From positions 1 to 29,903 of IMG/VR virus record IMGVR_UViG_3300046653_000021: a stretch of 29,903 nt of DNA, one strand, 5' to 3'. This document shows positions 2,332 to 16,155 of this stretch, in pieces. Each line of letters opens with the position of its first letter. Positions within the stretch are counted from its first letter, which is position 1. The position numbers and the translations under genes were made by a program. Source of the DNA: a virus. Under the pieces are notes generated by a model that was given only the letters and a program-made list of their open reading frames with translations, did no database searches and was not told the origin of the DNA.

Positions 2332-2597
2332 GTAAAACCAAAACCAAGGCCGCTGCCGACGCGCAGGCCCTCTACCTCCAGCGCCGCGCGGCTCTGCAAC
2401 GTGCGCCCCGCCTTGCTGCACCCGACCGCATCACCAACACCAGCGCGCACGGTACTTACACCGGCCACGAAACCGGCCACGCCGCACGCAGCGGCTCCGA
2501 AGACTTTCTCAATCTGCCCAGCCGCATCGGTGACGTTTTGCACTACCGCGACAAAACCAGCCAACCCTCCACCCACGCCACAAGGACTACGTCATGA
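2328..2597 (+). CDS. Small basic phage protein, unknown
   Basis: 89 residues from ATG 2328, overlapping the previous stop as ATGA. The N-terminal third is a Lys/Ala/Arg-rich helix (S-K-T-K-T-K-A-A-A-D-A-Q-A-L then R-R-A-A-L-Q-R-A-P-R). The remainder is rich in His, Thr, Gly and Ser and probably disordered, ending D-V-L-H-Y-R-D-K-T. This composition resembles small nucleic-acid-associated phage proteins, but nothing specific is recognised. Its stop overlaps the ParB-like gene start, again as ATGA. Confidence 0.5.
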   Translation: MSKTKTKAAADAQALYLQRRAALQRAPRLAAPDRITNTSAHGTYTGHETGHAARSGSEDFLNLPSRIGDVLHYRDKTSQPSTHATRTTS

Positions 2598-2974: not shown

Positions 2975-3465
2975 GCTCACGCAAACCCCGCCGCCCACGC
3001 TGGCACCCCACCGCCGACACGCTGGCCATCGCCCTGCACCAGGCCGCCAAGCCCGCGCCGGCCGACGTCGACGAAGTGCTGCAGGCCGTGCTCGATGCCA
3101 GCAAAGCGCTGCGCGAAGGCGTGGCCACCGAGCGCCAGTGGAGCATCCTCAGTGGCAGCCTAGCAGTGGCCCACACCATCGAGCGCCAGGGCGTCGTACG
3201 CGGCCTGCGCGAACACCTGGCCAGCGCCGAGGCCGCGCTGCAGGCCATCTACAACCGCGCTAAACAGCCAACCGGCTGGCGGCCCACGGTGCTGCATTAC
3301 CACGAGCTCGATGCCGTGCACACCTTCACGGATCTGCACGCCTTCCAGGCCCGATCGCTGAGCCGCGCCGAGTTCCTGCGCGCGATCAACACCACCACCG
3401 CTCAGATCCGCAGCGATGGCGGTAGGGTGACGGTGGTGCGGGAATTGAAGGGAGCGGCGGCATGA
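2971..3465 (+). CDS. Conserved phage early protein, unknown
   Basis: 164 residues from ATG 2971, coupled to the ParB-like gene by ATGA. It begins with a basic patch (S-S-R-K-P-R-R-P-R-W) followed by long helices: D-T-L-A-I-A-L-H-Q-A-A-K-P, then L-R-E-G-V-A-T-E-R-Q-W-S, then I-E-R-Q-G-V-V-R-G-L-R-E-H-L. The C-terminal half carries W-R-P-T-V-L-H-Y-H-E-L-D-A-V and I-R-S-D-G-G-R-V. I recognise this layout as a frequent uncharacterised protein in early regions of betaproteobacterial temperate phages, but no activity is known to me. No membrane segment. Confidence 0.65.
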   Translation: MSSRKPRRPRWHPTADTLAIALHQAAKPAPADVDEVLQAVLDASKALREGVATERQWSILSGSLAVAHTIERQGVVRGLREHLASAEAALQAIYNRAKQPTGWRPTVLHYHELDAVHTFTDLHAFQARSLSRAEFLRAINTTTAQIRSDGGRVTVVRELKGAAA

Positions 3466-4184
3466 AAGATAGCCCAATCCTCTTCGGCGCACCGATGGTG
3501 CGGGCCCTGCTTGATGGCAGCAAGACACAGACGCGGCGGGTCGTGAATCCAACCCCAGTGATCGACCCAAGGTATTGTGGTGACGCCTACATCCCGACCG
3601 GAAAGCATGGTGACCTAGCAGTAGCGGCGCCCCATGTGAGCCTTGCATGCCGATACGGTAGCCCTGGCGACCAGCTCTGGGTGCGTGAGGCCTGGAGAAT
3701 TGGCGCATGGAATGAAGACGGCGGTGAGCTGGTAATTGACTACATGGCCAGCGACTGTGCACGCCGTGAATGGTTGACGGTTCCAGACCCATGGCGTGAC
3801 GGTGAAGTGGCCATGAAATATTGGGAGCAATCGACCGAAGATTGCATCAAGGCCGGTTTAGAAACTGGCGAGGATGACCGTTACCACTGGGAGCCAGGAC
3901 AGTCGCCGTGCCGTAAACGTCCGAGCATCCACATGCCACGCTGGGCCAGCCGCATCACGCTTGAGGTGACGGGCGTGCGCGTGGAGCGGCTGCAGTCCAT
4001 CAGCGCAGAGGATGCACTGGCCGAGGGCATCACATTGCATCCAGATCACCACGGACGGCCGCGTGACTCGCGCTACGGGCCAGTGGCCACCTACCAGGAC
4101 TTGTGGGAATCCATCAACGGCGCCGGATCATGGGACTTGAATCCGTGGGTGTGGGTGATCGAATTTAAGGTGGTGAAGCCATGA
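3462..4184 (+). CDS. ASCH-like phage protein
   Basis: 240 residues from ATG 3462 (ATGA overlap with the preceding gene). The start P-I-L-F-G-A-P-M-V-R-A-L-L-D-G-S-K-T-Q-T, then R-R-V-V, the central G-S-P-G-D-Q-L-W-V-R-E-A-W-R, the P-S-I-H-M-P-R-W-A-S-R-I-T-L-E-V-T block and the closing W-V-W-V-I-E-F are typical of a common phage family with an ASCH/PUA-like RNA-binding fold. ASCH proteins are proposed to bind RNA or modified nucleotides; the phage role is unknown. Its codon usage looks less GC-biased than its neighbours, which suggests separate acquisition. Length is usual for the family. Confidence 0.65.
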   Translation: MKDSPILFGAPMVRALLDGSKTQTRRVVNPTPVIDPRYCGDAYIPTGKHGDLAVAAPHVSLACRYGSPGDQLWVREAWRIGAWNEDGGELVIDYMASDCARREWLTVPDPWRDGEVAMKYWEQSTEDCIKAGLETGEDDRYHWEPGQSPCRKRPSIHMPRWASRITLEVTGVRVERLQSISAEDALAEGITLHPDHHGRPRDSRYGPVATYQDLWESINGAGSWDLNPWVWVIEFKVVKP

Positions 4185-4450
4185 CACCCTGGTACACCGA
4201 CCAAGAGATCGATGACCTGTGCGAAGGCCTAGTCAACAACGCCGCCAAGGCGCGCCACCTGCGCGGTATGGGCCTCACCGTCACGCTCAAGCCCAACGGT
4301 CGCCCACTGGTGATGCGCACGCACGCCGAGGCCGTGCTGTCTGGCCTGCAGCAAATCCAGGCCGCTGTGGCTCAGGCCACGCGCAACAAGCCCGATCGAG
4401 CTGCGCTGGTACTGGCGTTTGGCAGAGGTAGAGCGACGTCCACCACATAA
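4181..4450 (+). CDS. DUF4224-type phage protein
   Basis: 89 residues from ATG 4181, overlapping the previous stop (ATGA). The opening W-Y-T-D-Q-E-I-D-D-L-C-E-G-L, then A-A-K-A-R-H-L-R-G-M-G-L, then K-P-N-G-R-P-L-V is the DUF4224 pattern. DUF4224 proteins are small, probably DNA-binding, and often sit just before the integrase in temperate phages, where an excisionase would be. An excision-regulating role is therefore plausible here but is not shown by the sequence. Confidence 0.7.
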   Translation: MTPWYTDQEIDDLCEGLVNNAAKARHLRGMGLTVTLKPNGRPLVMRTHAEAVLSGLQQIQAAVAQATRNKPDRAALVLAFGRGRATSTT

Positions 4451-4461
4451 CGCAGAAATAA

Positions 4462-4513
4462 CCGGCTCCGCGCTTTTGCGGAGTCCGGGTTGATTGACGG
4501 GTTATGCCCCGTC
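4462..4513 (+). other. Two adjacent hairpins in the leader before the 4535 gene
   Basis: The first hairpin pairs 4462-4471 with 4478-4488 (10 pairs, one bulged T at 4484, six-base loop). The second pairs GACGGG at 4496-4501 with CCCGTC at 4508-4513 (six-base loop). Neither has a proper T-run after it, so they are weak as terminators. They separate the packed early operon from the 4535 gene and integrase and could modulate read-through or translation. Function is unknown. Confidence 0.4.
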
Positions 4514-4534
4514 TTAACTACGGAGAACAAAACG

Positions 4535-4777
4535 ATGATTACACAAGCAGAGGCCGAAGCGCTGGCTAAAAAACACCTGCACGATTATGTGAACGCTTGC
4601 GGCTGCGAAACGACAGAGGATGCAGCAAATGCGCTGATGAAAATGGCAAGCCTATGCGGGCTATTTATGTGCGCAACAGTTGGGCAGGCCGAAGCTGTGG
4701 CTCGACTTGAAGGAACAGCCGCATTCATTGCGAAGCCTGAAATAGGTGCAAACTGGAAATCGGAAGTAGTTCAATGA
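4535..4777 (+). CDS. Small protein of unknown function (possible cargo gene)
   Basis: 80 residues from ATG 4535, chosen because CGGAGAA lies about eight bases upstream; an in-frame ATG at 4490 would add 15 residues without a ribosome site. It is a soluble helical protein with three cysteines (N-A-C-G-C, S-L-C-G-L) and ends W-K-S-E-V-V-Q. The gene is richer in A and T than its neighbours, stands alone between two hairpins and the integrase, and does not overlap other genes. This looks like a later insertion. I do not recognise it. Confidence 0.55.
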   Translation: MITQAEAEALAKKHLHDYVNACGCETTEDAANALMKMASLCGLFMCATVGQAEAVARLEGTAAFIAKPEIGANWKSEVVQ

Positions 4778-4858
4778 AGGGGCATAACGCAATTTATACC
4801 GCACCCTGCAACATAACGTCAGCCCGCTGAAGTTATAGAGCGTAGAACAGGCCAAAAA

Positions 4859-5995
4859 ATGAAACCCGCTACCATGGCGCCCATGGGCCGCAAACGCAAA
4901 TCCGCAGACACCGGGCTGGAGCCACGTGTGTACCAGCAGCACGGCGCGCTGTACTACGTGCATCGCGACGGCCGCTGGGAGCGCCTGGGCACCAACAAGG
5001 CCGAGGCCAACCAGAAGGCACGGCTCTACAACGATCCCGACGGCCAATTTGGCACCATGGTTTACTGGCTCGACATGTTCCTGGCCAACTGCCAGGCGCG
5101 CGTCACCGCCAAGACGCTGGCCCAGCGCACCTACGACGACTACTCGTTCGCCATCAAGGGCACCACGCCAAAGGGTAAAGACCCCAAGCCAGGCGCCCTG
5201 CGCGTCTTCTTCGCGCCGCCAATGACGCCGCTCGACGTCGATCCCGACAACGTTCAGGACTTCCTGGACACCAACGCCGAGCTGGGCAGACCGGTGCCGG
5301 CCAACCGAGAAAAAGCAGCGCTCAGCAGCTGCATCAGTTGGCTGATCCGCACTGGCAAAGTGCCAGGCCTCAAGATCAACCCGTGCATGCGCGCCAGCGG
5401 CATCAAGCGCAACCCGGAGAGCAAGCGCGATCGCTACGTCACGCATGACGAATACCGCGACGTGTGGGCCGTGGCGCCCGCCACGGTGCGCCTGATGATG
5501 GAGCTGACCTACCGCACCCTGCAGCGGCCCGAGAGCGACATCATCACCTGGACCACCGACATCCTGGTCAACGAAGACAAGGTGCAAAAGCTAAAGTTTC
5601 GCCAGGGCAAGACCGGCAAGGTGATGAAGATCGCCACCACGCCGGCGCTCGATGCTCTCATCACAAAAGGCTTGAGCGGTAACGTGGTGCCGCTGCGTCA
5701 GCACATCGTGCGCACGCGCAATGGAAAAGCCTACACCTACGACGGCCTGAGCGCCATGCTCAAACGCTGCATCGCCAAGGCCAACAAGATCAACGCGACA
5801 AAGGGCATCGCGCCCATGCCGTCATTTGGTTACCGCGACCTCAAGGGCAAGGGCGCCACGGACATGTGGCTGTCAGGCGTGCCCATCGAGCAGATCCAGC
5901 AGCTCTGCGGCCACGAGACCAAGGACACGACCGAGATCTACGTCAAGCAGCGCTGGCACGACACGATCCAAACCAACCAGGTGGTGATGGGATGA
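4859..5995 (+). CDS. int: Tyrosine-family phage integrase
   Basis: 378 residues. The C-terminal catalytic domain shows the box I arginine (R223 in T-L-Q-R-P-E-S-D-I), a beta-hairpin lysine (K251 in R-Q-G-K-T-G-K), the box II histidine (H352 in L-C-G-H-E) and the nucleophile Y361 (T-E-I-Y-V-K). The usual H-x-x-R motif is R326-D-L-K329 (F-G-Y-R-D-L-K-G-K-G-A-T-D), as in a phage subfamily with RDL/RDI at this place. An N-terminal arm-binding region (residues 10-60) with K-R-K and H-R-D-G-R-W and a core-binding helical domain (about 70-180) come first. The gene ends 140 bases before the tRNA-Asn attachment core, reading towards it. The start at 4859 has only a weak ribosome site; ATG 4874 or 4883 are alternatives. 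Confidence 0.92.
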   Translation: MKPATMAPMGRKRKSADTGLEPRVYQQHGALYYVHRDGRWERLGTNKAEANQKARLYNDPDGQFGTMVYWLDMFLANCQARVTAKTLAQRTYDDYSFAIKGTTPKGKDPKPGALRVFFAPPMTPLDVDPDNVQDFLDTNAELGRPVPANREKAALSSCISWLIRTGKVPGLKINPCMRASGIKRNPESKRDRYVTHDEYRDVWAVAPATVRLMMELTYRTLQRPESDIITWTTDILVNEDKVQKLKFRQGKTGKVMKIATTPALDALITKGLSGNVVPLRQHIVRTRNGKAYTYDGLSAMLKRCIAKANKINATKGIAPMPSFGYRDLKGKGATDMWLSGVPIEQIQQLCGHETKDTTEIYVKQRWHDTIQTNQVVMG

Positions 5996-5996
5996 C

Positions 5997-6016
5997 TGTC
6001 AAATATCCAGTAGTTT
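5997..6016 (+). repeat. 20-bp direct repeat, left copy (candidate integrase arm site)
   Basis: The sequence TGTCAAATATCCAGTAGTTT begins two bases after the integrase stop and recurs exactly at 6260-6279. The two copies flank the tRNA-derived core, 120 bases before it and 80 bases after it. This is the arrangement of integrase arm-type binding sites (P and P' arms). The role is inferred from position. Confidence 0.6.
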
Positions 6017-6135
6017 GCGACCCAAAACACCCATCGCGCCATAGCTAGACCCGCTCACCATTCGCAAATTATTTTTGACAATCAAAAGCAAGAATTGAGT
6101 ATCCATGCGGGTTTCACGTCCGATCGTAGTGCCGC

Positions 6136-6180
6136 CTGTTAATCCGTAGGTCCCTGGTTCGAGCCCAGGTCGAGGAGCCA
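6136..6180 (+). other. attP core: 3' part of tRNA-Asn (GTT) gene
   Basis: Positions 6136-6180 reproduce a tRNA-Asn from the anticodon loop (CTGTTAA, anticodon GTT) through the variable loop, T arm (CCTGG-TTCGAGC-CCAGG) and acceptor strand to the encoded CCA. The 5' half is absent: upstream bases do not form a D arm and cannot pair with the TCCG side of the anticodon stem. The copy therefore starts at the anticodon loop, the usual crossover place for tRNA-targeting tyrosine integrases. On integration the phage copy would restore the 3' half of the host tRNA. Core limits are approximate, because the host site is not in the window. Confidence 0.85.
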
Positions 6181-6199
6181 AAAAACTCGAATGAAATCA

Positions 6200-6231
6200 A
6201 GCACTTAGCGTTTCTGCGCTAGGTGCTTTTT
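6200..6231 (+). terminator. Rho-independent terminator after the tRNA-Asn fragment
   Basis: A 12-pair stem (6200-6211 with 6216-6227, with one wobble next to the middle and one at the loop) closes on a four-base loop and is followed by a T-run. It lies 20 bases after the tRNA CCA. After integration it would end transcription of the restored host tRNA before it enters the phage. Confidence 0.75.
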
Positions 6232-6250
6232 CTTTGCTTATTTGACTTTT

Positions 6251-6279
6251 ATTTGACAGTGTCAAATATCCAGTAGTTT
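6251..6279. repeat. 17-bp perfect palindrome joined to the right copy of the 20-bp repeat
   Basis: ATTTGACA-G-TGTCAAAT at 6251-6267 is a perfect inverted repeat. The second copy of the 20-bp direct repeat (6260-6279) begins inside it. Similar TTGACA half-sites occur at 6072-6077 and, partly, at 6241-6246. This fits a cluster of protein-binding sites, either integrase arm sites or an excisionase site. Confidence 0.5.
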
Positions 6280-6288
6280 TCAAACGAC

Positions 6289-6318
6289 AAAAAACCCCGC
6301 TGGCCGAAGCCAGCAGGG
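6289..6318 (-). terminator. Rho-independent terminator of the late operon
   Basis: On the - strand a 10-pair stem (6309-6318 with 6295-6304, one G-T pair) closed by a TTCG tetraloop is followed by six T at 6289-6294. It is 30 bases downstream of the last late gene (spanin) and is the strongest terminator in the window. Confidence 0.9.
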
Positions 6319-6348
6319 TCACGTTGCGGGGTCGAGGCAACTACAAAA

Positions 6349-6888
6349 TCATTGCGCCGCCCTTATGGCGATTCCTTGCTCTCGGCAGCTTGTGTAGGCG
6401 TCGTTGATGTGGTCGGCGTCGCGGGTGATCCGTTGAAGTAGTTCAGTAAGGTCCGCTGATAAAAGCCCGGTGGCTTCGGCGGCGTCTGCTGGACGATCAC
6501 CGGCAGGTCCGGCAGCTTGGGCCGTGGAGCCACCACCACCGCGCCCACATCCGGCGGCGTGCGGGTCGCGCAGCCGCCCAGCAGGGCCAGCAGCGCGGCG
6601 AAGACGATCAGACAGATCAGCGACAGTTTTTTCATGGTCAGAGTCCTTGAGGTTGATGGTGTTGGTGACTTCCTGCAGCGCCCGCTCGGTTTTGTTGGCG
6701 CGCTCGGTTTCGCTGGCCAACGTTGCGGACGCGTCCGCTTTTTGATTGTCGATCGCGGCCTGGTAGACGTGCGCCGCCTTGTCGTAGCCGATGCCCTCGA
6801 TGTGCGCCTCAAGCGCCCACAGGCCAGCCAGCGCCGCCACGATGGCCACGGCGATCGCGATCCACTTGTACGGGATGAGTCCTACCAT
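6349..6888 (-). CDS. Rz: Inner-membrane spanin (Rz-like, DUF2514 type)
   Basis: 179 residues from the ATG at 6886-6888, preceded by GGGAGA. Residues about 8-26 (K-W-I-A-I-A-V-A-I-V-A-A-L-A-G-L-W-A-L) form one N-terminal membrane anchor. A long charged helix follows (about 35-110) and is probably a periplasmic coiled coil. The R-L-R-D-P-H-A-A-G-C-G element is typical of DUF2514 spanins. Its start overlaps the end of the 34-aa gene, and the Rz1-like gene is wholly nested in another frame. Together with that lipoprotein it would fuse inner and outer membranes at the last lysis step. Confidence 0.85.
   Translation of the reverse strand: MVGLIPYKWIAIAVAIVAALAGLWALEAHIEGIGYDKAAHVYQAAIDNQKADASATLASETERANKTERALQEVTNTINLKDSDHEKTVADLSDRLRRAAGPAGRLRDPHAAGCGRGGGGSTAQAAGPAGDRPADAAEATGLLSADLTELLQRITRDADHINDAYTSCREQGIAIRAAQ
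6363..6635 (-). CDS. Rz1: Outer-membrane spanin lipoprotein (Rz1-like), nested in Rz
   Basis: 90 residues read in a different frame completely inside the Rz gene. It has a lipoprotein signal peptide: K-K at the start, a hydrophobic stretch, and a lipobox L-G-G-C with the lipid cysteine at residue 22. The mature part is proline-rich (P-R-P-K-L-P-D-L-P and T-P-P-K-P-P-G), as in Rz1 proteins, and ends in a Thr/Ala/Ser tail. Length is near the usual size. The nested architecture and the signal make this assignment firm. Confidence 0.88.
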   Translation of the reverse strand: MKKLSLICLIVFAALLALLGGCATRTPPDVGAVVVAPRPKLPDLPVIVQQTPPKPPGFYQRTLLNYFNGSPATPTTSTTPTQAAESKESP

Positions 6889-6986
6889 GGCCGTCTCCCG
6901 TACATGATGGTCAGTGCCAGCGCTGCGACAACGATCAGCGCCACCAGTGCGGCCATGCCCGCCAGTCCCCAAAGCACCCAGCTCAT
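6882..6986 (-). CDS. 34-aa single-membrane-segment protein in the lysis cassette
   Basis: A 34-residue frame from ATG 6984-6986 to TAG 6882-6884. It overlaps the endolysin stop as ATGA, and its end overlaps the Rz start codon, so it has a clear place in the operon. It is almost all membrane segment (W-V-L-W-G-L-A-G-M-A-A-L-V-A-L-I-V-V-A-A) with a short basic end (Y-G-R-R-P-W). A holin-like, antiholin or lysis-timing role is likely from position; it may also help spanin translation. Confidence 0.6.
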   Translation of the reverse strand: MSWVLWGLAGMAALVALIVVAALALTIMYGRRPW

Positions 6987-7366
6987 GGCGTCACCGTGAT
7001 GGTTTTGTCGGCGCTGGCAAACACCGCTTCGCGCACGTTGCGCGGCATGATGATGCAGCCCTCAGACGCGCAACCCGGATGCAGCGCCGAGTCGCCATGC
7101 ATGCGGAACAAGGAACGCCCGAACATCTCGTTCGAAGGATCTGGCTCAAGGATGATGGCCAGCGGCCCCAGGTGCGGACTGTTCTCTGCTTTGGTGAAGG
7201 TGTAGACCCCCCGGGGAAGTGGTCCGATGCTGTGCTGGTCCTGTGCATCCGGGTTGTTCTTTCCCTCCGGGTTCTGGCCGCAGTTGCCACCGGCGTAACC
7301 GATGGCCGCGACGTGTCCGTCAGGGTCAATGAGGCGACCCGTTGCCTGTTCGTATGTCCAAGTCAT
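6983..7366 (-). CDS. L,D-transpeptidase-like / DUF2778 peptidoglycan enzyme, putative endolysin
   Basis: 127 residues, ATG 7364-7366 with GGAGA upstream and an ATGA overlap to the preceding gene. The motif F-R-M-H-G-D followed by C-A-S-E-G-C-I-I-M is that of YkuD-type L,D-transpeptidases and the related DUF2778 (Tlde1-type) domain, giving a likely catalytic pair H90 and C104. An I-G-P-L-P-R-G-V-Y-T segment before it is also typical. No signal peptide is seen, so export would depend on a holin. No muramidase or other amidase exists in the cassette, so this is the best endolysin candidate. The bond it attacks is not known from sequence. Confidence 0.72.
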   Translation of the reverse strand: MTWTYEQATGRLIDPDGHVAAIGYAGGNCGQNPEGKNNPDAQDQHSIGPLPRGVYTFTKAENSPHLGPLAIILEPDPSNEMFGRSLFRMHGDSALHPGCASEGCIIMPRNVREAVFASADKTITVTP

Positions 7367-7668
7367 TTTTGCGTCTCCGTGTCAATCCAATCCGATAGCC
7401 TGCGGCTCTGCCCACGGCGCGTGCGCAGGTAGTAGCCAAAGCCGCAAATCAACAGGCCCGCGAATATCAGCGCGTGCACTGCGTCGATGGCCTCGGCGTG
7501 CTTGTCCGGGTTTTCGAGGTAGGTAAGGCCTGCACCCAAAAAACCTACCGATAGGCAGATCAGTCCGGCTTTGAAAATCACGCCGTCGTGTACACGTTTT
7601 GACATGATTGCCCAGCCCGTGGCGCACGCGAGCAATAGGCTCATGAAGCCATTGAAATGGTCAATCAT
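7363..7668 (-). CDS. Three-segment membrane protein of the lysis cassette
   Basis: 101 residues from ATG 7666-7668, with a very strong ribosome site (AAAGGAGG, eight bases upstream) and an ATGA overlap with the preceding holin-like gene. Three hydrophobic stretches are visible: F-M-S-L-L-L-A-C-A-T-G-W-A, then F-K-A-G-L-I-C-L-S-V-G-F-L-G-A-G-L, then A-L-I-F-A-G-L-L-I-C-G-F-G-Y-Y-L. The C-terminus is charged (R-T-R-R-G-Q-S-R-R). Position directly before the endolysin suggests a holin or antiholin role. The family is not one I can name. Confidence 0.65.
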   Translation of the reverse strand: MIDHFNGFMSLLLACATGWAIMSKRVHDGVIFKAGLICLSVGFLGAGLTYLENPDKHAEAIDAVHALIFAGLLICGFGYYLRTRRGQSRRLSDWIDTETQK

Positions 7669-7985
7669 TTGGTGCCTCCTTTGCTGATCCACCCCGAGAC
7701 AATTTCGCCGACCTTCAGGTCTTTGATGCCCGTCATTACGGCGGCAGCGATGCTCATGCCGAACAGGCCAAGCGCAAAGCTCAAAAAGCTCAGCATCGAG
7801 GCCGTGCCAAGGTGAAAATATTCGCCCGCCGCTGGCGCAATGAAGCCCGCACAGGCCGAGCCGCTCACCACGTTGGTAATGCGTTCGGTCCACGACGCGC
7901 CAGGCGCAAAACGCAGCGCTACCAGCGAGCCCATGACGCCAGCGAACAGTGGCGCGGTCACGAGTTTGTTTGGATCAATATCCAT
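7665..7985 (-). CDS. Putative holin (three membrane segments)
   Basis: 106 residues from ATG 7983-7985, overlapping the previous stop as TGATG. The sequence L-V-A-L-R-F-A-P-G-A-S-W-T-E-R-I-T-N, followed by a small-residue-rich segment (S-G-S-A-C-A-G-F-I-A-P-A-A) and a third segment (F-A-L-G-L-F-G-M-S-I-A-A-A-V), is a layout I associate with phage holins of this group. A short charged cytoplasmic tail follows (G-W-I-S-K-G-G-T-K). Three tandem small membrane genes precede the endolysin; which one is the true holin cannot be decided from sequence. Confidence 0.65.
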   Translation of the reverse strand: MDIDPNKLVTAPLFAGVMGSLVALRFAPGASWTERITNVVSGSACAGFIAPAAGEYFHLGTASMLSFLSFALGLFGMSIAAAVMTGIKDLKVGEIVSGWISKGGTK

Positions 7986-8296
7986 CAATACCTCCAGATC
8001 GACAGCACGTAAAAAACAGCGGGCAGCAGCGCGGTGACAACGGTCTTGCCAACGCACATTGAAAGGGGCTCGCTCTGAGGCGGGAAATAGTTGCTGACCT
8101 TCTTCACAGCGCACAGCCCACCGACCAGCAGCGTGGCGATCAGGAAACTGAACTGCCACGGGAACCGGAGATGCAGCGCGTAGGAGATCAGCACGCCCAG
8201 CGCACCGCCCCAGGCGAAATGGTTGACGTAGGCGCCTCCTGGAAGTTGCGGCACACTGTCAAGCAGTGTTGAGAGTTTGGCTAGAAGTGAGTTCAT
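7985..8296 (-). CDS. Small membrane protein of the lysis cassette
   Basis: 103 residues from ATG 8294-8296, with GAGAGG upstream. It has a hydrophobic G-G-A-L-G-V-L-I-S-Y-A-L segment, then F-S-F-L-I-A-T-L-L-V-G-G-L, then V-V-T-A-L-L-P-A-V-F-Y-V-L, so two or three membrane spans. It is the first of three consecutive membrane genes ahead of the endolysin, coupled to the next by TGATG. Probably a holin-system component; no family is recognised. Confidence 0.6.
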   Translation of the reverse strand: MNSLLAKLSTLLDSVPQLPGGAYVNHFAWGGALGVLISYALHLRFPWQFSFLIATLLVGGLCAVKKVSNYFPPQSEPLSMCVGKTVVTALLPAVFYVLSIWRY

Positions 8297-8312
8297 GGTC
8301 CTCTCCGTGGAA

Positions 8313-8738
8313 TTACAGTCCCAGCTTTGCTTTTTCAGCCCGCCCCCACGCCCGGCATTCCTCTGCGTAGGCGTTGTAGGCCGTCATCTCGGTGCTTGGC
8401 GCCGTACGCAACAGCTTGAGTTCGTCGGCGGTGCTGTAGCGTTGCGCGATCGCATCCTGCACGCGCTGGTTGATCAGACGCACTTGCGGGCTGGCCAGTT
8501 TGATCGCCGCCAGCAGATCCGTGGCGAGGGGTGTAGTCAACGTTTCTATGGATGCTGCAATGGAACTCGGCTGATTTGTGGGGAGTGTGAAGCCATCGAA
8601 CACTGCCACCACCGTGCGGCCATCGGCCAGTGTGGCAACTTCCTGCCCGGCCTGTACTCCCTGGGGTGCATCAGGCAGGCGCAGTGTGTGCGTGGTGACT
8701 GCGTCGATAACTTTTCGGTAAGCGTGTAAAGAGGTCAT
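8313..8738 (-). CDS. Phage protein between DGR and lysis genes, unknown
   Basis: 141 residues from ATG 8736-8738; the start lies 68 bases inside the 3' end of the RT gene, in another frame. The N-terminal half is beta-rich (T-L-A-D-G-R-T-V-V-A-V-F-D-G-F) and the rest helical, with V-R-L-I-N-Q-R-V-Q-D-A-I-A-Q-R-Y and an E-E-C-R-A-W-G-R-A-E-K-A end. Small proteins with this ending often follow tail-fibre genes in related phages, so a tail-fibre assembly or fibre-associated role is possible, but nothing diagnostic is present. Confidence 0.55.
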   Translation of the reverse strand: MTSLHAYRKVIDAVTTHTLRLPDAPQGVQAGQEVATLADGRTVVAVFDGFTLPTNQPSSIAASIETLTTPLATDLLAAIKLASPQVRLINQRVQDAIAQRYSTADELKLLRTAPSTEMTAYNAYAEECRAWGRAEKAKLGL

Positions 8739-9690
8739 GATGTTTTTCTTTCAGGTGGGTTAAGAGCGGTTTGAGTGAGCAGGTGCGCTTGGCGTGTCCA
8801 AGTCGCGAAATAATGGATTCGAGACGGCCTTTACGGGCGTCTGCACGGATTTGACTGACGATGCGCGGGCGAACAAACCGACCGCGTGCCCAAGTGCGAA
8901 ATCCACAGAAGTTGGCGCCGCGCTTCACGGGGTGCAGGCTGAAGTGACTGATCTCCAGGCCCAGCAGCGCCAGGTGCGTGCGGATCTGCTGCAGCCACAC
9001 TAGGCCGGTAGCGCGATCGGGCGCCAGCATGATGCTGTCATCCATGTAGCGGCCGTAATCCTTGATCTTGAGCGTGCGCTTGCAGAATTGGTCTAGGCTG
9101 TTGAGGTAGACGTTGGCAAAGGTCTGGCTGAGCAGGTTCCCGATCGGAACGCCGGTGCGCTCTGGGCGCTGCGCAAATGCGTTCATCAGATCCAGCATGG
9201 CGCCGCACTTGATGATGCGGGCTAGCAGCACCTGCAACACATCCCGATCGATGCTGTAAAAGAACTTGCGCACATCTACATGCAATATCCAGTCGGTACG
9301 CGGTGCGCGACGGATAGCGGCCTGCAGCCAGTCGGCAGCGACGTGCGTTCCCTTGCCGATGCGGCAGGCGAAGTTGGTATTGATGTAGTGGGCTTCGAAG
9401 ATGGGATAGGCTACCGCGTAGACGGCGTGCTGCACCACCATGTCCCTGAAGGCGGGAGCCTCGATCAGGCGTGGCTTTCTTCCATCATTCACCCAGAACC
9501 TATTGCAAGGGTGTGGGCGATAGCTGCCGTCGCTCAGTTCCTGGTGCAATGCCGCCAGATTCGCGCCCGGGTTGCAGCCAAACTCGAAGCAGGCGCGATG
9601 ATTGCGCTTGTTCCGGCTGGCTGCGCGATAAGCGGAAAGCAATGCGTCCATGGTGCAAATGCGCGGGTACAGGTTGCCAATGCGTTTCAT
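8671..9690 (-). CDS. DGR reverse transcriptase
   Basis: 339 residues from ATG 9688-9690 behind AGGAG. Motif A is I-L-H-V-D-V-R-K-F-F-Y-S-I-D with catalytic D139. The motif G-V-P-I-G-N-L-L-S-Q (180-189) carries the Ser-Gln pair that marks DGR reverse transcriptases, where retrons and group II introns have other residues. The active site is Y-M-D-D (215-218). The length is normal for the family and there is no maturase or endonuclease domain. Arg/Lys-rich stretches at the C-terminus fit RNA binding. It follows the template repeat by 150 bases, and the order variable gene, avd, TR, RT is that of Bordetella phage BPP-1. With Avd it copies the TR RNA, misincorporating at adenines, to rewrite the VR. 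Confidence 0.95.
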   Translation of the reverse strand: MKRIGNLYPRICTMDALLSAYRAASRNKRNHRACFEFGCNPGANLAALHQELSDGSYRPHPCNRFWVNDGRKPRLIEAPAFRDMVVQHAVYAVAYPIFEAHYINTNFACRIGKGTHVAADWLQAAIRRAPRTDWILHVDVRKFFYSIDRDVLQVLLARIIKCGAMLDLMNAFAQRPERTGVPIGNLLSQTFANVYLNSLDQFCKRTLKIKDYGRYMDDSIMLAPDRATGLVWLQQIRTHLALLGLEISHFSLHPVKRGANFCGFRTWARGRFVRPRIVSQIRADARKGRLESIISRLGHAKRTCSLKPLLTHLKEKHHDLFTRLPKSYRRSHHAHTAPA

Positions 9691-9840
9691 GTCAAGGCTC
9701 CTGAACCAGTCTTCGCGTGAAGACCAACATGGGCCCCGGTCGCTACCAAAGGGCGCACAAGCAAAACATTTCGCCGCAAGGCACGACGGAGACTCCCTCT
9801 TTGCCGGTCAGCACACGCTGCATAAGGCGTATTTGGCACA
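9691..9840 (-). ncRNA. TR-RT spacer, likely part of the DGR template RNA
   Basis: 150 bases between the template repeat and the RT start, with no convincing gene. In studied DGRs the RNA used as template extends from the end of avd through TR into a spacer of this size, and the spacer is needed for priming and RT-Avd binding. Function here is inferred from equal position and length; I did not establish a fold. Confidence 0.5.
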
Positions 9841-9957
9841 GAGTCGGAGCGAAAGCCATAGTTGTTGTTCGAGTTAGCGCGAACGTTGTTCAAGTTCAGC
9901 GCCCAGACCCCGGCTATCGCGCCGTTGTTCCAGTTGCCACCCGAATTCACACAAAGC
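9841..9957 (-). repeat. DGR template repeat (TR)
   Basis: 117 bp that align without gaps to 10452-10568 (constant offset of 611). Read on the - strand, it contains ten AAC codons at positions where the variable protein differs. AAC is the codon that yields many residues but no stop when its adenines change. Of 26 adenines, 15 differ in the VR. It starts three bases after the avd stop and is not itself a gene, though the frame is open through it. Confidence 0.95.
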
Positions 9958-9960
9958 ATG

Positions 9961-10407
9961 TCAAGCCTCCACCGCATTCGCAGCATCGCTGCGAATTCCT
10001 GAACCCGTGGCCACCTGGCCACGGAATTCCAAATTCACCCAACCACCAATCATTCGCCCCAGCTCGTCTACCATGCGCAGGATGACCAGATGCCGGTGGT
10101 CTCCCGGATCTGATGCATCCTTGCGGCCGGCGTTGTAGCCAAACAGACCCAGCTCGTGGGCGAGGTTGAGCAGCATGCGAAGCTGCTCATGGCGAATATC
10201 CAGTTGGACCAAAGTCGTTTTCTTGTGATAGCGCTTCTGCGCCTCGGTCACCAGGTTGTAGACATCCACAAATGCCACTCGAATGCTCTGAGTCAGGCTG
10301 TATTTGTGGCAGTTGGGAAAGTGGGCCAGGTAGCCCTCCAACTGCACGGCAAATAGCACCAGCTTGCGATGCAGCGAGGCTTCGGCGTGGACGCTCTGTT
10401 TTTGCAT
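9961..10407 (-). CDS. avd: DGR accessory variability determinant (Avd)
   Basis: 148 residues from ATG 10405-10407, with no clear ribosome site. The protein is mostly helical: an N-terminal helix with L-H-R-K-L-V-L-F-A-V-Q-L-E-G-Y-L, a basic helix with V-T-E-A-Q-K-R-Y-H-K-K-T-T-L, a third with L-R-M-L-L-N-L-A-H-E-L-G-L, and a fourth ending V-D-E-L-G-R-M-I-G-G-W. The basic surfaces and four-helix outline match Avd, a pentameric barrel that binds the reverse transcriptase and template RNA. It lies between the variable gene and TR, and its stop is three bases from TR, so template RNA and avd mRNA probably share a transcript. An extra tail after the last helix (about 15 residues) is longer than usual. 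Confidence 0.88.
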   Translation of the reverse strand: MQKQSVHAEASLHRKLVLFAVQLEGYLAHFPNCHKYSLTQSIRVAFVDVYNLVTEAQKRYHKKTTLVQLDIRHEQLRMLLNLAHELGLFGYNAGRKDASDPGDHRHLVILRMVDELGRMIGGWVNLEFRGQVATGSGIRSDAANAVEA

Positions 10408-10441
10408 GGTGATAAGGGCCTAATCGCTACCGCTCAAGGCC

Positions 10442-11791
10442 TCAAAGATACGAGGCGGAGCGAAAGCCATCGCTGTAGCTCGAGCTAGCGCGAACGGCGC
10501 CCAAGTCCAGCGCCCAGACCCCGGCTAACGCGCCGCTGACCCAGCTGCCACCCGAATTCACACAAAGCTCATTCGGTCGAGCCCCGTCATACATGTAGTC
10601 GTTACCGAACTGGTTGGAGCCTCCCACACCGGCCAACAAAGGAATACCGGCACCAGTGACGCCCCAAGGGGTGCCGCTGGTGGCTTCGGACAAAACCTGT
10701 GCTGCTGAGCCGAAGGTCTTATTGGCGGCTGCAGCCGTCATGCATCCGTAGGTGGCGCCCAGGCTGGTGTACAGCGCGGCCAGGCCGGTGGCGCCCCAGG
10801 CGTCGGTGGCCAGGGTGTTGCCGCTGGTCATGGCGTTGACGTCTGCGGCGGTGTTAAGCAGATAGAAGTTGGTGCCGTTGCTCGTCAAGCCGAAGGGCTC
10901 AATACTCCACAGTGTGCCGTTCAAATCGGCGACGCCACAGTTTTGGCCGTTGTGCGTGGTCTTGCTGAAGAAGTTGGCGCTGCCCGTCTTGCTGCAGTTG
11001 GTGGCTGTGCCATCGTCCAGGAAGGCGATCGAGCCGTCGTTTGTGTCGCCTAAGGCGTTATTGTTACAGCCCTTTGGAAAATTCGTGCTGCCGGCCGAGT
11101 ACCAGGCGTTATAGGTGGTTCCCGTGCTCGCGCTGCCATGGGCGTTGGACAACAGCGCCAGTGCAGCGCGGATGAATCGGCTGGAGCAAAAGAACACGCT
11201 GCCGCGCGTCTTGGCGGCTGGGATAGCGCCATAGAACGCATTGGCAGGGGCGCCCGTCAATGTGGCGAAGGCGGTGGATGCCACGGCGCCGCGTTGCGCG
11301 CTAGCCAGGGGCACGCCGTTCTTCAGTGAGCTGGCGGTGCCGTTGTTGTTGCTGCACATGTACTTGTCGACAAACACGCCGGGGCGGATGGTGCCGCCGT
11401 TGTAGAACGCGCGGTGCAGCGCGTAGCCTGCTGCATTGGCTGTCGCGACGTCTGCAAAGTAGCTGAAGGCCTTGACATCCACCACGTTCAGGGCAAAGCC
11501 GTTGGCGCCTGTGCCGTATTTGTAATAGAACGCCGGCATGTAGACCATGATCGATCCGTCGGTGTATTGATAGTTTCCATAGGTGTCGCTGGCCGGGTCA
11601 TTGGTGCCGTAGAGCGCGGCGAATCCGCTGGGGATGCTGGGCGCAATGCCCACGCCAAAACCCTGCTGGCCAGGGGTTCCGATGTTGTTGACCAGGCCGG
11701 CGCCGGTGGCTGTGCCGATGCGGATGCCTCCAGGGAAGGAGACGGGCGAGCCGTCGGGAGTTTGGATGTTGCGGGTGACAAGGGTGCTCAT
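10442..11791 (-). CDS. DGR variable protein, probable tail-tip receptor-binding protein
   Basis: 449 residues from ATG 11789-11791 (AAGGAA upstream). The C-terminal third has the C-type-lectin / FGE-sulfatase-like outline usual for DGR targets, with G-N-D-Y-M-Y-D-G-A-R, then N-E-L-C-V-N-S-G-G-S-W, then A-G-V-W-A-L. Residues 409-447 are encoded by the VR. Relative to the template, residues 416, 418, 419, 422, 429, 431, 432, 436, 438, 439, 440, 441 and 446 differ; ten of these are Asn in the template version. The N-terminal two thirds are Gly/Asn/Thr/Ala-rich and beta-like. It follows a fibre gene by 22 bases. By analogy with Mtd of BPP-1, it would sit at the tail tip and bind host receptors. 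Confidence 0.9.
   Translation of the reverse strand: MSTLVTRNIQTPDGSPVSFPGGIRIGTATGAGLVNNIGTPGQQGFGVGIAPSIPSGFAALYGTNDPASDTYGNYQYTDGSIMVYMPAFYYKYGTGANGFALNVVDVKAFSYFADVATANAAGYALHRAFYNGGTIRPGVFVDKYMCSNNNGTASSLKNGVPLASAQRGAVASTAFATLTGAPANAFYGAIPAAKTRGSVFFCSSRFIRAALALLSNAHGSASTGTTYNAWYSAGSTNFPKGCNNNALGDTNDGSIAFLDDGTATNCSKTGSANFFSKTTHNGQNCGVADLNGTLWSIEPFGLTSNGTNFYLLNTAADVNAMTSGNTLATDAWGATGLAALYTSLGATYGCMTAAAANKTFGSAAQVLSEATSGTPWGVTGAGIPLLAGVGGSNQFGNDYMYDGARPNELCVNSGGSWVSGALAGVWALDLGAVRASSSYSDGFRSASYL
10452..10568 (-). repeat. DGR variable region (VR) with IMH at its 3' end
   Basis: The last 117 bp of homology to TR lie inside the variable gene, ending seven bases before its stop codon. There are 16 differences from TR: ten A to G, three A to T, two A to C, and one T to G (template base to VR base, coding strand). 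The T to G lies about 20 bases from the 3' end (10471), in the region expected to act as the initiation of mutagenic homing site. I see no convincing cruciform hairpin just downstream of the VR, unlike BPP-1. Confidence 0.95.
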
Positions 11792-11813
11792 ATGATTTCC
11801 TTCGTGGCTTGGG

Positions 11814-12266
11814 TTAGTGGATTGACCAGGTGGCGTTGTCACTCACGGTGACCGTGACGCCGTCGGATACGGTGATGGGCCCCACGCTGGCAGCGTTGTA
11901 GTTGCTCGCCAGCGTGAAATTGGTAGTGATCTCGCGCGGATTGATGCGGATGGGTGAGTCGGGGTTGGTGGCTTGGGCGGTGGATGCAAACGCCGCAGCG
12001 GAGGCGGCAGATGCTGCTGCTGCGGCGGCATTGGCGACGGGGTTGGTAACGTTGACGGCGGCAGCGGCGGCTTGGGTGACGATGCGGTCAGATGCTGCAG
12101 CAGCGGCGCTGACGGCGGCGGCTACCTGTTTTGCGTTCACATCCGCTTGCAGCGCGTTGGCTTCGGTGACGAAGGTAGGAAGTGCCGCCAAGAATGCGTC
12201 TCCGCGCGCAGCAAAAGTGCTGGAATCGCTGCGCGTTGGAGGTGTGGGTAGGGATGAGATTGACAT
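11814..12266 (-). CDS. Short tail-fibre-like protein
   Basis: 150 residues from the ATG that overlaps the previous stop (TAATG). The first part is S-L-P-T-P-P-T-R-S-D followed by an Ala-rich helical stretch (residues about 40-95), likely a trimeric coiled coil. The C-terminus has S-N-Y-N-A-A-S-V-G-P-I-T-V, then G-V-T-V-T-V-S-D-N-A-T-W-S-I, a repeatlet found at the tips of many short phage fibres. It stands between the tail protein and the variable protein, and may link the two as a stalk. Confidence 0.75.
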   Translation of the reverse strand: MSISSLPTPPTRSDSSTFAARGDAFLAALPTFVTEANALQADVNAKQVAAAVSAAAAASDRIVTQAAAAAVNVTNPVANAAAAAASAASAAAFASTAQATNPDSPIRINPREITTNFTLASNYNAASVGPITVSDGVTVTVSDNATWSIH

Positions 12267-13168
12267 TAGGTGAGTCCTTCAATTTCGAGGCTGCAATAGC
12301 TCGACGTCGGGTAGGCGATGTCGATAGAAAAATTGCGGTAAAAACCAAAAACGGTGAGCGGCTCAAAGCCTGCTGCGTCCACGCCCAGCCAGGCGCACGG
12401 CGTGGCGCGCAAATCCGCCAGAACGCGCTGCACTTTGTTGAGCTGGCCGTTGTCCAGAGAGAGGTTCGCCGTCATGCGCTTGCTGTAGGCGAGCTTGGCG
12501 AAGGTGGTGTTGCCCAGGGCGTCGGTGTTCTTTTTGCTGTAGTCGATGATCGACGCGGTGGCGCCGTACTGGGTGTCTCCCATTGTGTAGAAAGTGCCTG
12601 CGGCCAGAATGCCGCACTTAACCGTGCCGGTACCGCTGACGGTGACGGTGATATACGCGTCCACATACGGCGGCAGGTTGGTCAGCACCACATCTGCCTT
12701 CTGCACATAGGGTTCAAAGTAGTACTGGTACCAATCGGCGATGATGGTGCCGTCCAGCGGCTGGCTGTAGGTGTACACAATGTTGCCGGCCAGCGCGTCG
12801 CGCACCGTCACATCCACCTGCGTGCCCTCCATACCGAACAACGCCAGGCTGTTGACGTATCCAGGGTGGATCACCACCGTCAGCGGCGCGGTGCTCACCG
12901 TCTGCGTGCCCACCAGGCTGTCGAACATGGCGTATTTGTTGGTGGGGCCAACGTCCAACCAATGCGGCGTGGTGAGCAGTGCCGACGCGTCTGGCGATGT
13001 GGCGTCCACGCCCGCGATCAGGCACTGATAGACGCGCTGCGTGCTGGTCAGGATCACGAACGCACCCAATGTGTACGAGGTGGCGCTGGCCCAGGCGCTG
13101 TAGGTTTCGGTGGCCGTGGTGCTGTAGAGCGCCGAGCTGTCGATCACAATGGGCTTGACAACCTTCAT
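12266..13168 (-). CDS. Tail-tip / distal tail protein with carbohydrate-binding-like segment
   Basis: 300 residues, starting in an ATGA overlap with the tape measure stop. Residues about 24-72 read A-W-A-S-A-T-S-Y-T-L-G-A-F-V, then Y-Q-C-L-I-A-G, then P-H-W-L-D-V-G, the W...Y..G..V....YxC....W pattern of small chitin- or carbohydrate-binding modules. The remainder is beta-rich with a conserved-looking block T-N-K-Y-A-M-F-D-S-L-V-G-T. Directly after the tape measure one expects the distal tail protein or hub, and this is the only candidate of adequate size. Exact role uncertain; attachment to surface glycans is possible. Confidence 0.65.
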   Translation of the reverse strand: MKVVKPIVIDSSALYSTTATETYSAWASATSYTLGAFVILTSTQRVYQCLIAGVDATSPDASALLTTPHWLDVGPTNKYAMFDSLVGTQTVSTAPLTVVIHPGYVNSLALFGMEGTQVDVTVRDALAGNIVYTYSQPLDGTIIADWYQYYFEPYVQKADVVLTNLPPYVDAYITVTVSGTGTVKCGILAAGTFYTMGDTQYGATASIIDYSKKNTDALGNTTFAKLAYSKRMTANLSLDNGQLNKVQRVLADLRATPCAWLGVDAAGFEPLTVFGFYRNFSIDIAYPTSSYCSLEIEGLT

Positions 13169-16155
13169 ACCACCGTCCTTACGCTCAGGGCATCACCCAG
13201 CGGCACGATGCGGTCCAGGGTTCGATTAGTTTTGGCGGTGTTCGCCACGTTCTGTTCAAAGGCGCGCCGCAGCAGCCGCATCTCCACCAGCAGCTCGGTG
13301 TTGTCTGCACCGCCCGAGCGCAGCATGCTGGCGGTTTGGTCGGCATTGAAGATGCGCGACGGGCCGGTGACTTCGATCTCGGGGCCGTTCTCGCCAACCA
13401 AGCGGATACCACCGCCCCAGTCGCCGCCCGTGGCCATTCCGGAGATTGAGCTGCGGTCGTTTTCAAAGTTGGGGTATTGCTGCGTCACCGCAGCCAGGGC
13501 TGCCTGGGCTTTCACGTCTTCCAGCGAGGATGGGTCTGACAGAACAATGATGTCCATCGGATTCCCGTCCACCAAGAGACTCGCTTCTTCAATGTGACCA
13601 TTGAAATACTCGGTGTAATCAAACTCCACCGCGCGCTTGGCCACACCCATCTTGGCGGCCTCGGCCAGATACATTTGCTCCACCTCGCTGGGTACGCCTT
13701 TGTGCACCAGCGTGCCGCCCATACCACCGCTCTTGACCGAACCATCTGGACCGAATGTGGATTTTTCCTCGCCATGCGGTTTGTAGTCGCTGCCGCCGTT
13801 GAGCGAGAACAGCGCCGAGATGCCGAGCGCCACCCAGCCCAGCGGACCAGCCGATATCCCTGCAGCAATCTCTGAGCCGCCCACCGATGCGCCCTCTGCC
13901 ACCGCGCCGTAGCCCGCATCCATCGCAGCGGCGCTGCCCATCGTCATGCCGGTTTCCGCGCCCGCGCCGGCCAACGTCCCTGCACCGACGCTCGTAGCGC
14001 CCGCTGCAGCCGCCGTGCCGTACGCACCATTTGTAGCCAGCAGCCCATCGATACCGCCACCGGCATAACCAGCATTGGCGGCAATGCTGCCCGCGCCGTT
14101 GGCCAGTGACATCGAGCCGGTGGCCATCGATCCCAGGGCGCTGGCGCCTGACATGAGCGAACTGCCCATGGAAGATGCACCTGCCATCCCCCCAGCGCCA
14201 GATGAGCCACTGCCGCCACCTGTGATCCCCAGGGCGCCGTTGACCATGCCGGTGAGAGCATTGGACACGGGCGACATGATTGCCTGGATGGTGGGCGTGA
14301 GCACCATTTGCTCGAACATCTTGATGAGGTAATCGCGGAACGCCACGAAGATGCTCTTGCCGCTTTCAACCGCGCCTAAAAATGCCTGAGTCAGGCCTGC
14401 GCCGATCTGATCAGACGTTTTTTTCCACTCGGCTGCTGTGTCTTTTGCGTTTTGCAAGATAGCGCCGCGACTCGCCTCGGCTTCGGCGCCACGATACGCG
14501 GCCGCCAGATTTTTTTGTGCGTCTATGAGGTCTTGGCTCAACCCAGCCTCTTCGAGCATCTGTGCCTGATGGTCGGCGGCGACGGCCATTTCTTCGAGCC
14601 GCGCAATCTTGATCTCTACGATCTGTTCCTTGGTCAGGAACATCATGTCGTTGTTGTCGCGTGTCTTGCTGGTTTCGTCGTTCAGCTTGTCGATCTTGGT
14701 CTGGATCGCCACGGCGGATTTGTAGTTCTCGTCCGTGTCCTGCTTTTGCTCTTCGATCTGTCTTGTCAACGCGTCGTTTTCGGCGATGCGAGCACGGGTC
14801 GCGGCCTCCATGGTGGCCGTGAGGGTGATCTTGCCGCTGGCAAGGTCTTGCGTGAGCTTCAGGTCTTCCTGCTGAGCGAGTGTCAGCTTGTAGCCATAGT
14901 CGAGCTCAGCCTGCAATTTTTCAGTGATGTTCTCGATAGAGACGGCATAGTCCAAACCCGCCTTGGCGGCCTGGTCGGCAACTTCCTTGGCTTTTGCCAT
15001 CGACTCAGAGTGGTAATCGAGCTGCGCTCTATCATCCCCAACCGCAACACCCACCGCCTGCACGTTGGCGATGCGGTCGCGCAGTTGCTGCCCCAAGGTG
15101 CTTTCGCCCCAGGTCTTGTCGAGCGTGGCGTGGAAGTCCTCGGTCATCTGCTGCTGAGCTATCGTCGTGGTACGGTAGGTTTCAGCCGCGCCTGCAAAAT
15201 CACCATGGATGACTTTGTTGATGACGGTGGAGATTCCGTCGAACTGCAGCATGGCGGACGCCGCCATAAAGCCGATGCTCGACCCCACGGTAATGATCAC
15301 ATCCTTCAGGCCGCTGAACGCGTCCATCACATAGGTGGCGCCTACGATGGCCGTGCGCGTCCAGTCGGCAATGGAGCCGTCGGCAGAGAGCTTTTTTATC
15401 TCTTCACGCAGCCCACCGGTATCGTTGACCATGCCCAGCGTGGCGGTCGCGGCTTCCTGCAGCGCAGGCAGCATGCCCAGCGACAATTCCTTCTTCCAGG
15501 CGTCGCCGCTGGCCTGCAAGCGCTTCATATCCACCTCAAACTGGCGCGCTTGCGTGGCCTGTTCTTCTGTGACCTTGGCATGCAGTTCACCCACATCGGC
15601 CAGCTCTTGCAGGAACGGCAGCGCTTGCGCTCCCGACTTACCCAGCAGCGTCATGGCGACGGCGGATTTGTCAGACCCATCGGCAAACCCGTTCATGGCA
15701 CCGGCCAACGTCACCAATTTTTCGTCGGGCGACAGGGCGTTGAAGTCGTTGAAATTCAGCCCAAGTGCGGCGATCGCTTGGCCCGTGCCCTTGCTCTCTT
15801 CGTTGGCCACGGCCATGTTCTTGGCCAGCTTGTTCATCATTCCGGCGATCTCGTCGCCGGTGGTGCCGGTCAACTTGCCCACCGACACCAAGGCAGAAAA
15901 CTGCTCTACCGAAGCGCCCGTCTGAATCGACAAGTCGTGCAGCGCGGCCACACCGTGCAGCGCGCCTTCCACCATGCCGCGAAACGCCTCAATCGAGGCG
16001 ATACCGGTCAGGCCGATAAACGCGGCCTTTGCAAGACCCACGGCCTCCTCGATCGCAGCCATCGACGTGCCCACCGCAGACTTGGCGTCGTCCATGTCGC
16101 GCTTGAGCTGCGCCATGTCGGCCATCATCTGGATCTCAAGGGTTCCGATGTTCAT
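13165..16155 (-). CDS. Tail tape measure protein
   Basis: 996 residues from ATG 16153-16155, with TAAGGA upstream. It is the longest gene and follows the tail chaperones, as tape measures do. The N-terminus is a charged coiled coil (L-E-I-Q-M-M-A-D-M-A-Q-L-K-R-D-M-D), followed by Ala/Gly-rich hydrophobic helices, long coiled coils (about 380-580), a Gly/Ser/Ala/Met-rich low-complexity part (about 650-780) and a compact C-terminal domain. About 1,000 residues corresponds to a tail of roughly 150 nm by the usual length rule, consistent with a siphovirus. No lytic transglycosylase or peptidase motif is evident. Confidence 0.9.
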   Translation of the reverse strand: MNIGTLEIQMMADMAQLKRDMDDAKSAVGTSMAAIEEAVGLAKAAFIGLTGIASIEAFRGMVEGALHGVAALHDLSIQTGASVEQFSALVSVGKLTGTTGDEIAGMMNKLAKNMAVANEESKGTGQAIAALGLNFNDFNALSPDEKLVTLAGAMNGFADGSDKSAVAMTLLGKSGAQALPFLQELADVGELHAKVTEEQATQARQFEVDMKRLQASGDAWKKELSLGMLPALQEAATATLGMVNDTGGLREEIKKLSADGSIADWTRTAIVGATYVMDAFSGLKDVIITVGSSIGFMAASAMLQFDGISTVINKVIHGDFAGAAETYRTTTIAQQQMTEDFHATLDKTWGESTLGQQLRDRIANVQAVGVAVGDDRAQLDYHSESMAKAKEVADQAAKAGLDYAVSIENITEKLQAELDYGYKLTLAQQEDLKLTQDLASGKITLTATMEAATRARIAENDALTRQIEEQKQDTDENYKSAVAIQTKIDKLNDETSKTRDNNDMMFLTKEQIVEIKIARLEEMAVAADHQAQMLEEAGLSQDLIDAQKNLAAAYRGAEAEASRGAILQNAKDTAAEWKKTSDQIGAGLTQAFLGAVESGKSIFVAFRDYLIKMFEQMVLTPTIQAIMSPVSNALTGMVNGALGITGGGSGSSGAGGMAGASSMGSSLMSGASALGSMATGSMSLANGAGSIAANAGYAGGGIDGLLATNGAYGTAAAAGATSVGAGTLAGAGAETGMTMGSAAAMDAGYGAVAEGASVGGSEIAAGISAGPLGWVALGISALFSLNGGSDYKPHGEEKSTFGPDGSVKSGGMGGTLVHKGVPSEVEQMYLAEAAKMGVAKRAVEFDYTEYFNGHIEEASLLVDGNPMDIIVLSDPSSLEDVKAQAALAAVTQQYPNFENDRSSISGMATGGDWGGGIRLVGENGPEIEVTGPSRIFNADQTASMLRSGGADNTELLVEMRLLRRAFEQNVANTAKTNRTLDRIVPLGDALSVRTVV

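Follow-up and report, generated by a model that had tools for sequence, protein, structure and literature searches.

A complete BPP-1-type diversity-generating retroelement and the deleted remnant of a second one in a temperate phage

Diversity-generating retroelements (DGRs) of the BPP-1 type combine a variable (target) gene, an accessory variability determinant gene (avd), a template repeat (TR) and a reverse transcriptase (RT) gene, which follow each other as mtd-avd-TR-brt in BPP-1 itself. The DGR spacer RNA between TR and RT is structured and primes the synthesis of complementary DNA (cDNA) (PMC12875486). In addition, a hairpin/cruciform after the variable repeat (VR), with a GC-rich stem of 7-10 bp and a GRNA loop, is required for efficient BPP-1 homing (Guo et al., 2011; PMC3240598). 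Bacterial genomes with two DGRs are already known (PMC3521204). Here, we analysed the virus record IMGVR_UViG_3300046653_000021 over 29,903 nucleotides (the window). With a probability of roughly 95%, we conclude that positions 8671-11791 of this temperate phage contain a complete BPP-1-type DGR (the late DGR), and that positions 3-1050 contain a second DGR of another RT lineage that was inactivated by an internal deletion.

A base-by-base recheck of the late DGR gave the transcription order variable gene, avd1, TR and RT1, all on the minus strand. The positions which a previous sequence-only reading of this DNA had assigned to these four parts proved exact to the base: the variable gene (449 aa) at 10442-11791, avd1 (148 aa) at 9961-10407, the TR (117 nt) at 9841-9957 and RT1 (339 aa) at 8671-9690, the last containing both the YMDD and the IGNLLSQ motifs that had been noted there. 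The VR (10452-10568) is located at the extreme 3' end of the variable gene, a DNA hairpin/cruciform element (10417-10441) lies directly 3' of the stop codon of this gene, and the spacer (Sp) region of the template RNA (9691-9840) separates TR from RT1. Every part is present, undamaged, adjacent on one strand and kept in relatives. The same reading had called the element a complete DGR arranged as in BPP-1 and the phage temperate, which agrees with our results: the layout matches that of BPP-1, the nearest solved RT structure is PDB 8ub7, and we regard the phage as temperate because a tyrosine integrase gene is present at 4859-5995. The late DGR is a further member of the known BPP-1-type DGRs and is ordinary for its kind.

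The two copies of the 117-nt repeat are 86% identical and form the sole long repeat of the region. TR and VR show 16 mismatches over the 117 positions, and 15 of these affect TR adenines (10 A>G, 3 A>T and 2 A>C); the single non-A mismatch is a T to G change at TR position 9860. With 26 A in the TR, the hypergeometric probability of at least 15 of 16 mismatches falling on A is 3.5e-11, and all ten AAC codons of the TR are altered in the VR. When eight late-DGR pairs were considered together (window included), 117 of 119 mismatches were at A (P 4e-89, an uncorrected count that treats the relatives as independent). The 3' ends of the two repeats are IMH*-like in the TR (9841-9859) and IMH-like in the VR (10452-10470), IMH denoting the initiation of mutagenic homing. 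Position 9844 of the TR is A and the corresponding VR position 10455 is C, and the same A/C pair was observed in nine of nine pairs (the eight above plus L086; L085 was left out of the repeat-end and hairpin comparison). This is probably a fixed IMH*/IMH difference rather than a mutation site, which would leave 14 truly mutated adenines in the VR of the window.

The proteins point in the same direction. RT1 matches the PHROG reverse transcriptase family phrog_1423 (E 2.6e-90) and Pfam RVT_1, and its closest solved structure, 8ub7, is what we take to be the BPP-1 bRT enzyme. It is 37% identical to BPP-1 Brt in a direct comparison and clusters with Brt in the RT tree. The product of avd1 matches Pfam PF22296 (bAvd; 50.2 bits, cut-off 40) and phrog_3206, and its score against NF033474 is under the cut-off of that model. 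Close relatives of RT1 were found in eight viral contigs and one Rhodoferax metagenome-assembled genome (MAG), and an exact search with the VR end added one more relative (L014). The ratio of nonsynonymous to synonymous substitution rates (dN/dS) against relatives was 0.11-0.18 for RT1, avd1 and the target; RT1 and avd1 are under strong purifying selection.

The non-coding parts of the late DGR were also compared among relatives. About 150 nt between TR and RT1 show strong conservation among close relatives with no gene evident. In the consensus fold, a prediction from nine related sequences that offers support and not proof, the sequence just before the TR pairs with the start of the spacer to form a long stem enclosing the TR, and additional spacer hairpins show changes on both stem sides (covariation). 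The Rfam search returned no family for this RNA. For the hairpin downstream of the target stop codon, ten relatives have the invariant apex GAGC-GNNA-GCGA, whereas five complementary outer stems, read by eye from the alignment, differ in sequence (GGCCT/AGGCC, GCCCT/AGGGC, GGCCC/GGGCC, GGGTG/CACCC and TGCCT/GGGCA). L006 requires a bulge. The loop of the window is GGTA, consistent with GRNA, and that of L007 is GCTA. Folding of single-strand DNA agrees with the hairpin for most relatives, the window doing only modestly better than shuffles (z -1.9). This element looks like a variant of the BPP-1 homing hairpin.

The remains of the second DGR are located at 3-1050 on the plus strand. Its variable gene, VP2 (3-473), has its 5' end cut by the window edge; AlphaFold predicted a confident C-type lectin domain (pLDDT 95), the best Foldseek match was the C-terminal domain of Legionella Lcl, with snake C-type lectins matching weakly, and a profile match to 8q4e was obtained (E 1.8e-8). 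Compared with the template repeats (TR2) of relatives, the variable repeat VR2 (376-464) has 11 of 14 mismatches (L021) and 12 of 14 (L022) at A, so this lineage had a functional second DGR until the damage occurred. The next gene, avd2 (511-873), is an intact orphan: its product matches PF22296 with 47.4 bits, over the cut-off, and shares 20% identity with that of avd1 and 91% with its counterpart in an intact relative (L017). It is followed by a 5' stub of the RT-15 RNA (Rfam RF03018; 857-923) and by a 3' remnant of the RT2 gene (925-1050). Similarity to intact relatives ends at 923; from 925-931 onwards, the final ~110 nt of the RT2 gene can be aligned again, which places the junction at about 923/925; the remnant is 72-77% identical to the RT2 ends of L018, L020, L021 and L030.

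An intact RT-15 RNA in the window was considered and rejected: although all 192 model positions are covered, the match scores 45 bits against a cut-off of 82, and the relatives show that the first ~67 nt are genuine and the remainder is RT2 remnant. About 1.2 kb has been lost, a segment that held the greater part of the RT-15 RNA, the complete TR2 and almost the whole of RT2. Relative to a full RT-15-associated early DGR, avd2 and VR2 are kept, RT-15 is truncated, TR2 is absent and RT2 is represented by its 3' end only. A scan of positions 850-1500 found no template matching VR2, and a search of the whole record with the TR of the late DGR (TR1) returned only TR1 itself and its VR (VR1). With the template and the RT removed by internal deletion, the second DGR would now be an orphan Avd plus a lectin-like target that is frozen. 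The previous statement that no gene is broken is thus right for the late DGR and wrong for the window, which contains this second, deleted DGR.

With regard to the function of the late target, terminase, portal, head, tail tube and tape-measure genes are found upstream of the late DGR on the minus strand, and holin- and spanin-like genes downstream. The position between tape-measure/tail genes and the holin suggests that the target is likely part of the tail tip and involved in host binding, probably as a receptor-binding protein. A Pfam domain search of the target protein of the window gave no match; in PHROG, it matched families of unknown function and, weakly, a tail protein. Homologues in relatives are 82-47% identical. 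A profile of eight target relatives matched 5VF4, the variable protein of a Thermus aquaticus DGR (PMC6328139), at residues 264-446, a stretch that spans nearly the whole VR (E 0.0046, a weak match). A structure search of the target C-terminus against Mtd had been suggested as a check; a profile comparison of the target with Mtd detected no similarity.

By analogy with BPP-1, from which all steps are drawn, the late DGR may operate as follows. The avd-TR-spacer RNA would be bound by RT1 together with Avd, and the spacer would prime cDNA synthesis into the 3' end of the TR. RT1 would misincorporate opposite template adenines, and the cDNA would then replace the VR, directed by the IMH end and the hairpin past the stop codon. 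The TR could be kept as the master copy because its IMH* end stays distinct. On the face with which the C-terminus of the probable tail-tip protein binds, the ten AAC codons could encode many residues and never a stop.

Several observations weigh against the interpretation presented here. The hairpin has a 5-bp stem and a mismatched apex, whereas BPP-1-like DGRs are described as having perfect stems of 7-10 bp. The tail-tip role of the late target has its basis in gene position and the weak PHROG tail match; that the element rewrites the host-binding end of the tail is likely. Its C-type-lectin fold comes from one profile match (E 0.0046), and an AlphaFold model computed with eight sequences was discarded (pLDDT 28). 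A lectin fold at the C-terminus of the late target is supported but not settled, because the structure prediction reached just this value. In the only near-identical record, IMGVR_UViG_3300046485_000090 (L003/L015), the VR is identical, with 3 single-nucleotide polymorphisms (SNPs) over window positions 1919-14744 (12.8 kb). Finally, the deletion junction of the second DGR is known from a single assembly; no other contig containing it was found, and the near-identical strain begins at window position 1919.

The first alternative is that the late DGR is anatomically complete but inactive or rarely active in this phage lineage. The near-identical record is relevant here: the VR has not changed despite 3 SNPs and a diverged tape-measure segment, and one non-A mismatch (T to G) has accumulated between TR and VR. 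VR identity across isolates had been named beforehand as an observation that would speak against the element; one pair of records is comparable, and the VR is identical in it. BPP-1-type homing can be infrequent. Because of this, identity in two records is weak evidence, and it argues only weakly against frequent recent retrohoming. On the other hand, the late DGR is undamaged, the selection on RT1 and avd1 is strong, and in related phages nearly every difference between a VR and its own TR falls on A. Inactivity is therefore, in our view, unlikely. The possibility that L003/L015 is a 100% identical duplicate was ruled out by the 3 SNPs and the diverged tape-measure block, and it represents another strain. 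In the comparison with L015, the sequence diverges suddenly at window ~14745-15981 within the tape-measure gene, after the 3 SNPs up to 14744, which resembles local recombination.

A second alternative is that the deletion in the second DGR is an assembly artefact, that is, a misjoin over the RT-15/TR/RT2 segment. The junction was seen once, and similarity between TR2 and VR2 can mislead assembly. However, the breakpoints lie within RT-15 and the RT2 3' end, outside the repeats, and order and strand are correct on both sides of the junction, so we consider a misjoin doubtful. A true internal deletion remains our preferred explanation.

It could also be proposed that avd2 (511-873) and the lectin gene (3-473) are not a dead relic but a working target module served in trans by RT1. 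The avd2 and VP2 open reading frames are intact as far as the window reaches, avd2 is conserved (91% to L017), and RT1 is encoded in the same genome. Nevertheless, the searches described above provided no template for VR2, RT1 and RT2 are separate clades, and the RT-15 RNA is truncated, which makes such service quite improbable; diversification of VP2 by RT1 was rejected in the absence of a matching template. As for the idea that RT1 and avd1 serve another system (a retron, a defence RT or a group II intron remnant) and that the repeat is incidental, the sub-threshold NCBIfam matches of RT1 to group II intron, Drt and retron RTs score far under their cut-offs, RT1 clusters with BPP-1 Brt, and the A-only mismatch pattern, which recurs in related loci, already contradicts it, so that it can be dismissed.

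Intact counterparts of the second DGR were identified in other viruses. In total, 60 viral contigs carry an Avd2-type Avd, and in nearly all of them, among the matches listed, an RT is located ~280 nt downstream of Avd2. We inspected 32 loci, and in these the segment from Avd to RT contains a template that corresponds to between one and three lectin genes lying upstream. For 39 TR/VR pairs from 18 of these 32 loci, 471 of 542 mismatches were at A, a count in which the repeat ends were extended loosely, inflating the non-A mismatches. Judged by these repeats, the Avd2-type loci are genuine DGRs of the early region and distinct from the late one. Three of the loci (L064, L066 and L071) have three separate variable genes per template, some of them several kb distant. 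Another locus, in Pseudomonas phage vB_PaeS-D14O (L081), has Avd2 and no RT was found in its record; RT-less forms may recur. Early DGRs are also present in isolated phages, including Burkholderia phage Magia, Shewanella phage QDWS and Pseudomonas phages Cruim01, Haboob and phPA-G, and the annotation of Magia names the Avd, the RT and a potential DGR target.

All 23 intact relatives that were scanned contain RT-15 (143-188 bits), and where both ends were measured, the RT-15 end lies within about 10 nt of the TR start. Among the relatives whose Avd2 is most similar to that of the window, the majority have an RT2 frame that is open across RT-15 and TR. In L063, L071 and L074, it opens near the RT-15 end or later, and the sole RT2 start codon is ~200 nt past the Avd stop, inside the TR as measured in L071. 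Its position suggests that RT-15 forms the 5' portion of the early DGR's template RNA.

The RT tree places RT1 and RT2 in separate, fully supported groups, and two other phages were found to encode RTs of both lineages, each accompanied by its Avd and target genes. One is a viral contig of 46,977 bases (G008; loci L090 and L091), in which each DGR has its own TR and VR. The other is the prophage of the Rhodoferax MAG (G041 contig 64; L094-L096), where the late DGR occupies 131.5-135 kb and another group of lectin, Avd and RT genes occupies 165.6-168.5 kb of the same contig; between them lie phage genes for tape measure, head, portal, terminase and DNA metabolism. A second DGR was absent from the other long late-DGR records (Bise, G001 and G040). 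Our literature search, of partial coverage, found no description of two-DGR phages. Taken together, it seems reasonably likely that a group of temperate phages of Betaproteobacteria and relatives carries two DGRs of separate RT lineages, one located in the late tail region and an early one directed at small lectin-like proteins with no obvious place in the tail; that RT-15 is the 5' flank of the early template RNA, ending at the TR start; and that the phage of the window has lost the early system through a natural deletion and retains its Avd and target.

The late DGR adds a clean member to a well-known system and offers material for comparison (spacer RNA, variants of the IMH and of the hairpin); the second DGR could matter more. 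Phages with two DGRs allow us to ask whether two Avd/RT pairs stay separate within one cell, what diversified lectin-like proteins of the early region gain a phage, and what the RT-15 RNA does. The phage of the window, which has a target and an Avd without template or RT, is a natural knockout for such questions.

Among known systems, the BPP-1 DGR resembles the late DGR in gene order and strand, in the TR right after avd, in the ~150-nt spacer ahead of the RT, in the VR at the 3' end of the target gene, in the hairpin past the stop codon and in its location ahead of lysis genes. It differs in that RT1 is just 37% identical to Brt and the late target has no detectable similarity to Mtd, the IMH of the window has no (GC)14 run, and the perfect 8-bp stem with a GAAA loop of BPP-1 is replaced by a 5-bp stem and a GNNA apex with GA/GA mismatches. 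The DGR-like locus of Pseudomonas phage Bise ranked top in the phage collection, with an RT that is 46% identical and the order target, four-helix bundle protein and RT where the tail genes end. However, Bise is a Mu-like phage with a contractile tail, and its TR/VR repeat is short and weak. This TR/VR-like repeat of Bise (L012; 4005-4100 and 4719-4810) has several non-A mismatches, unlike the other relatives, and may be decayed or misdelimited.

The prophage of the Rhodoferax MAG (L011/L094) and the IMG/VR relatives L004-L009 have RTs that are 64-80% identical to RT1, the same anatomy and, where both repeats are readable, the A-only TR/VR pattern. The Rhodoferax prophage differs in its head and packaging genes, and it also has the Avd and targets of the second DGR and a second, Magia-like RT gene. 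Phages Magia, QDWS, Cruim01, Haboob and phPA-G belong to the family of the relic in the window, sharing avd2 and the lectin targets, and they retain the RT-15 RNA, the TR and RT2 that the window has lost, with the TR at or within the 5' part of the RT2 frame. The early DGR would also depart from BPP-1 in the layout of its RNA: the structured part follows the TR in BPP-1, whereas RT-15 precedes it.

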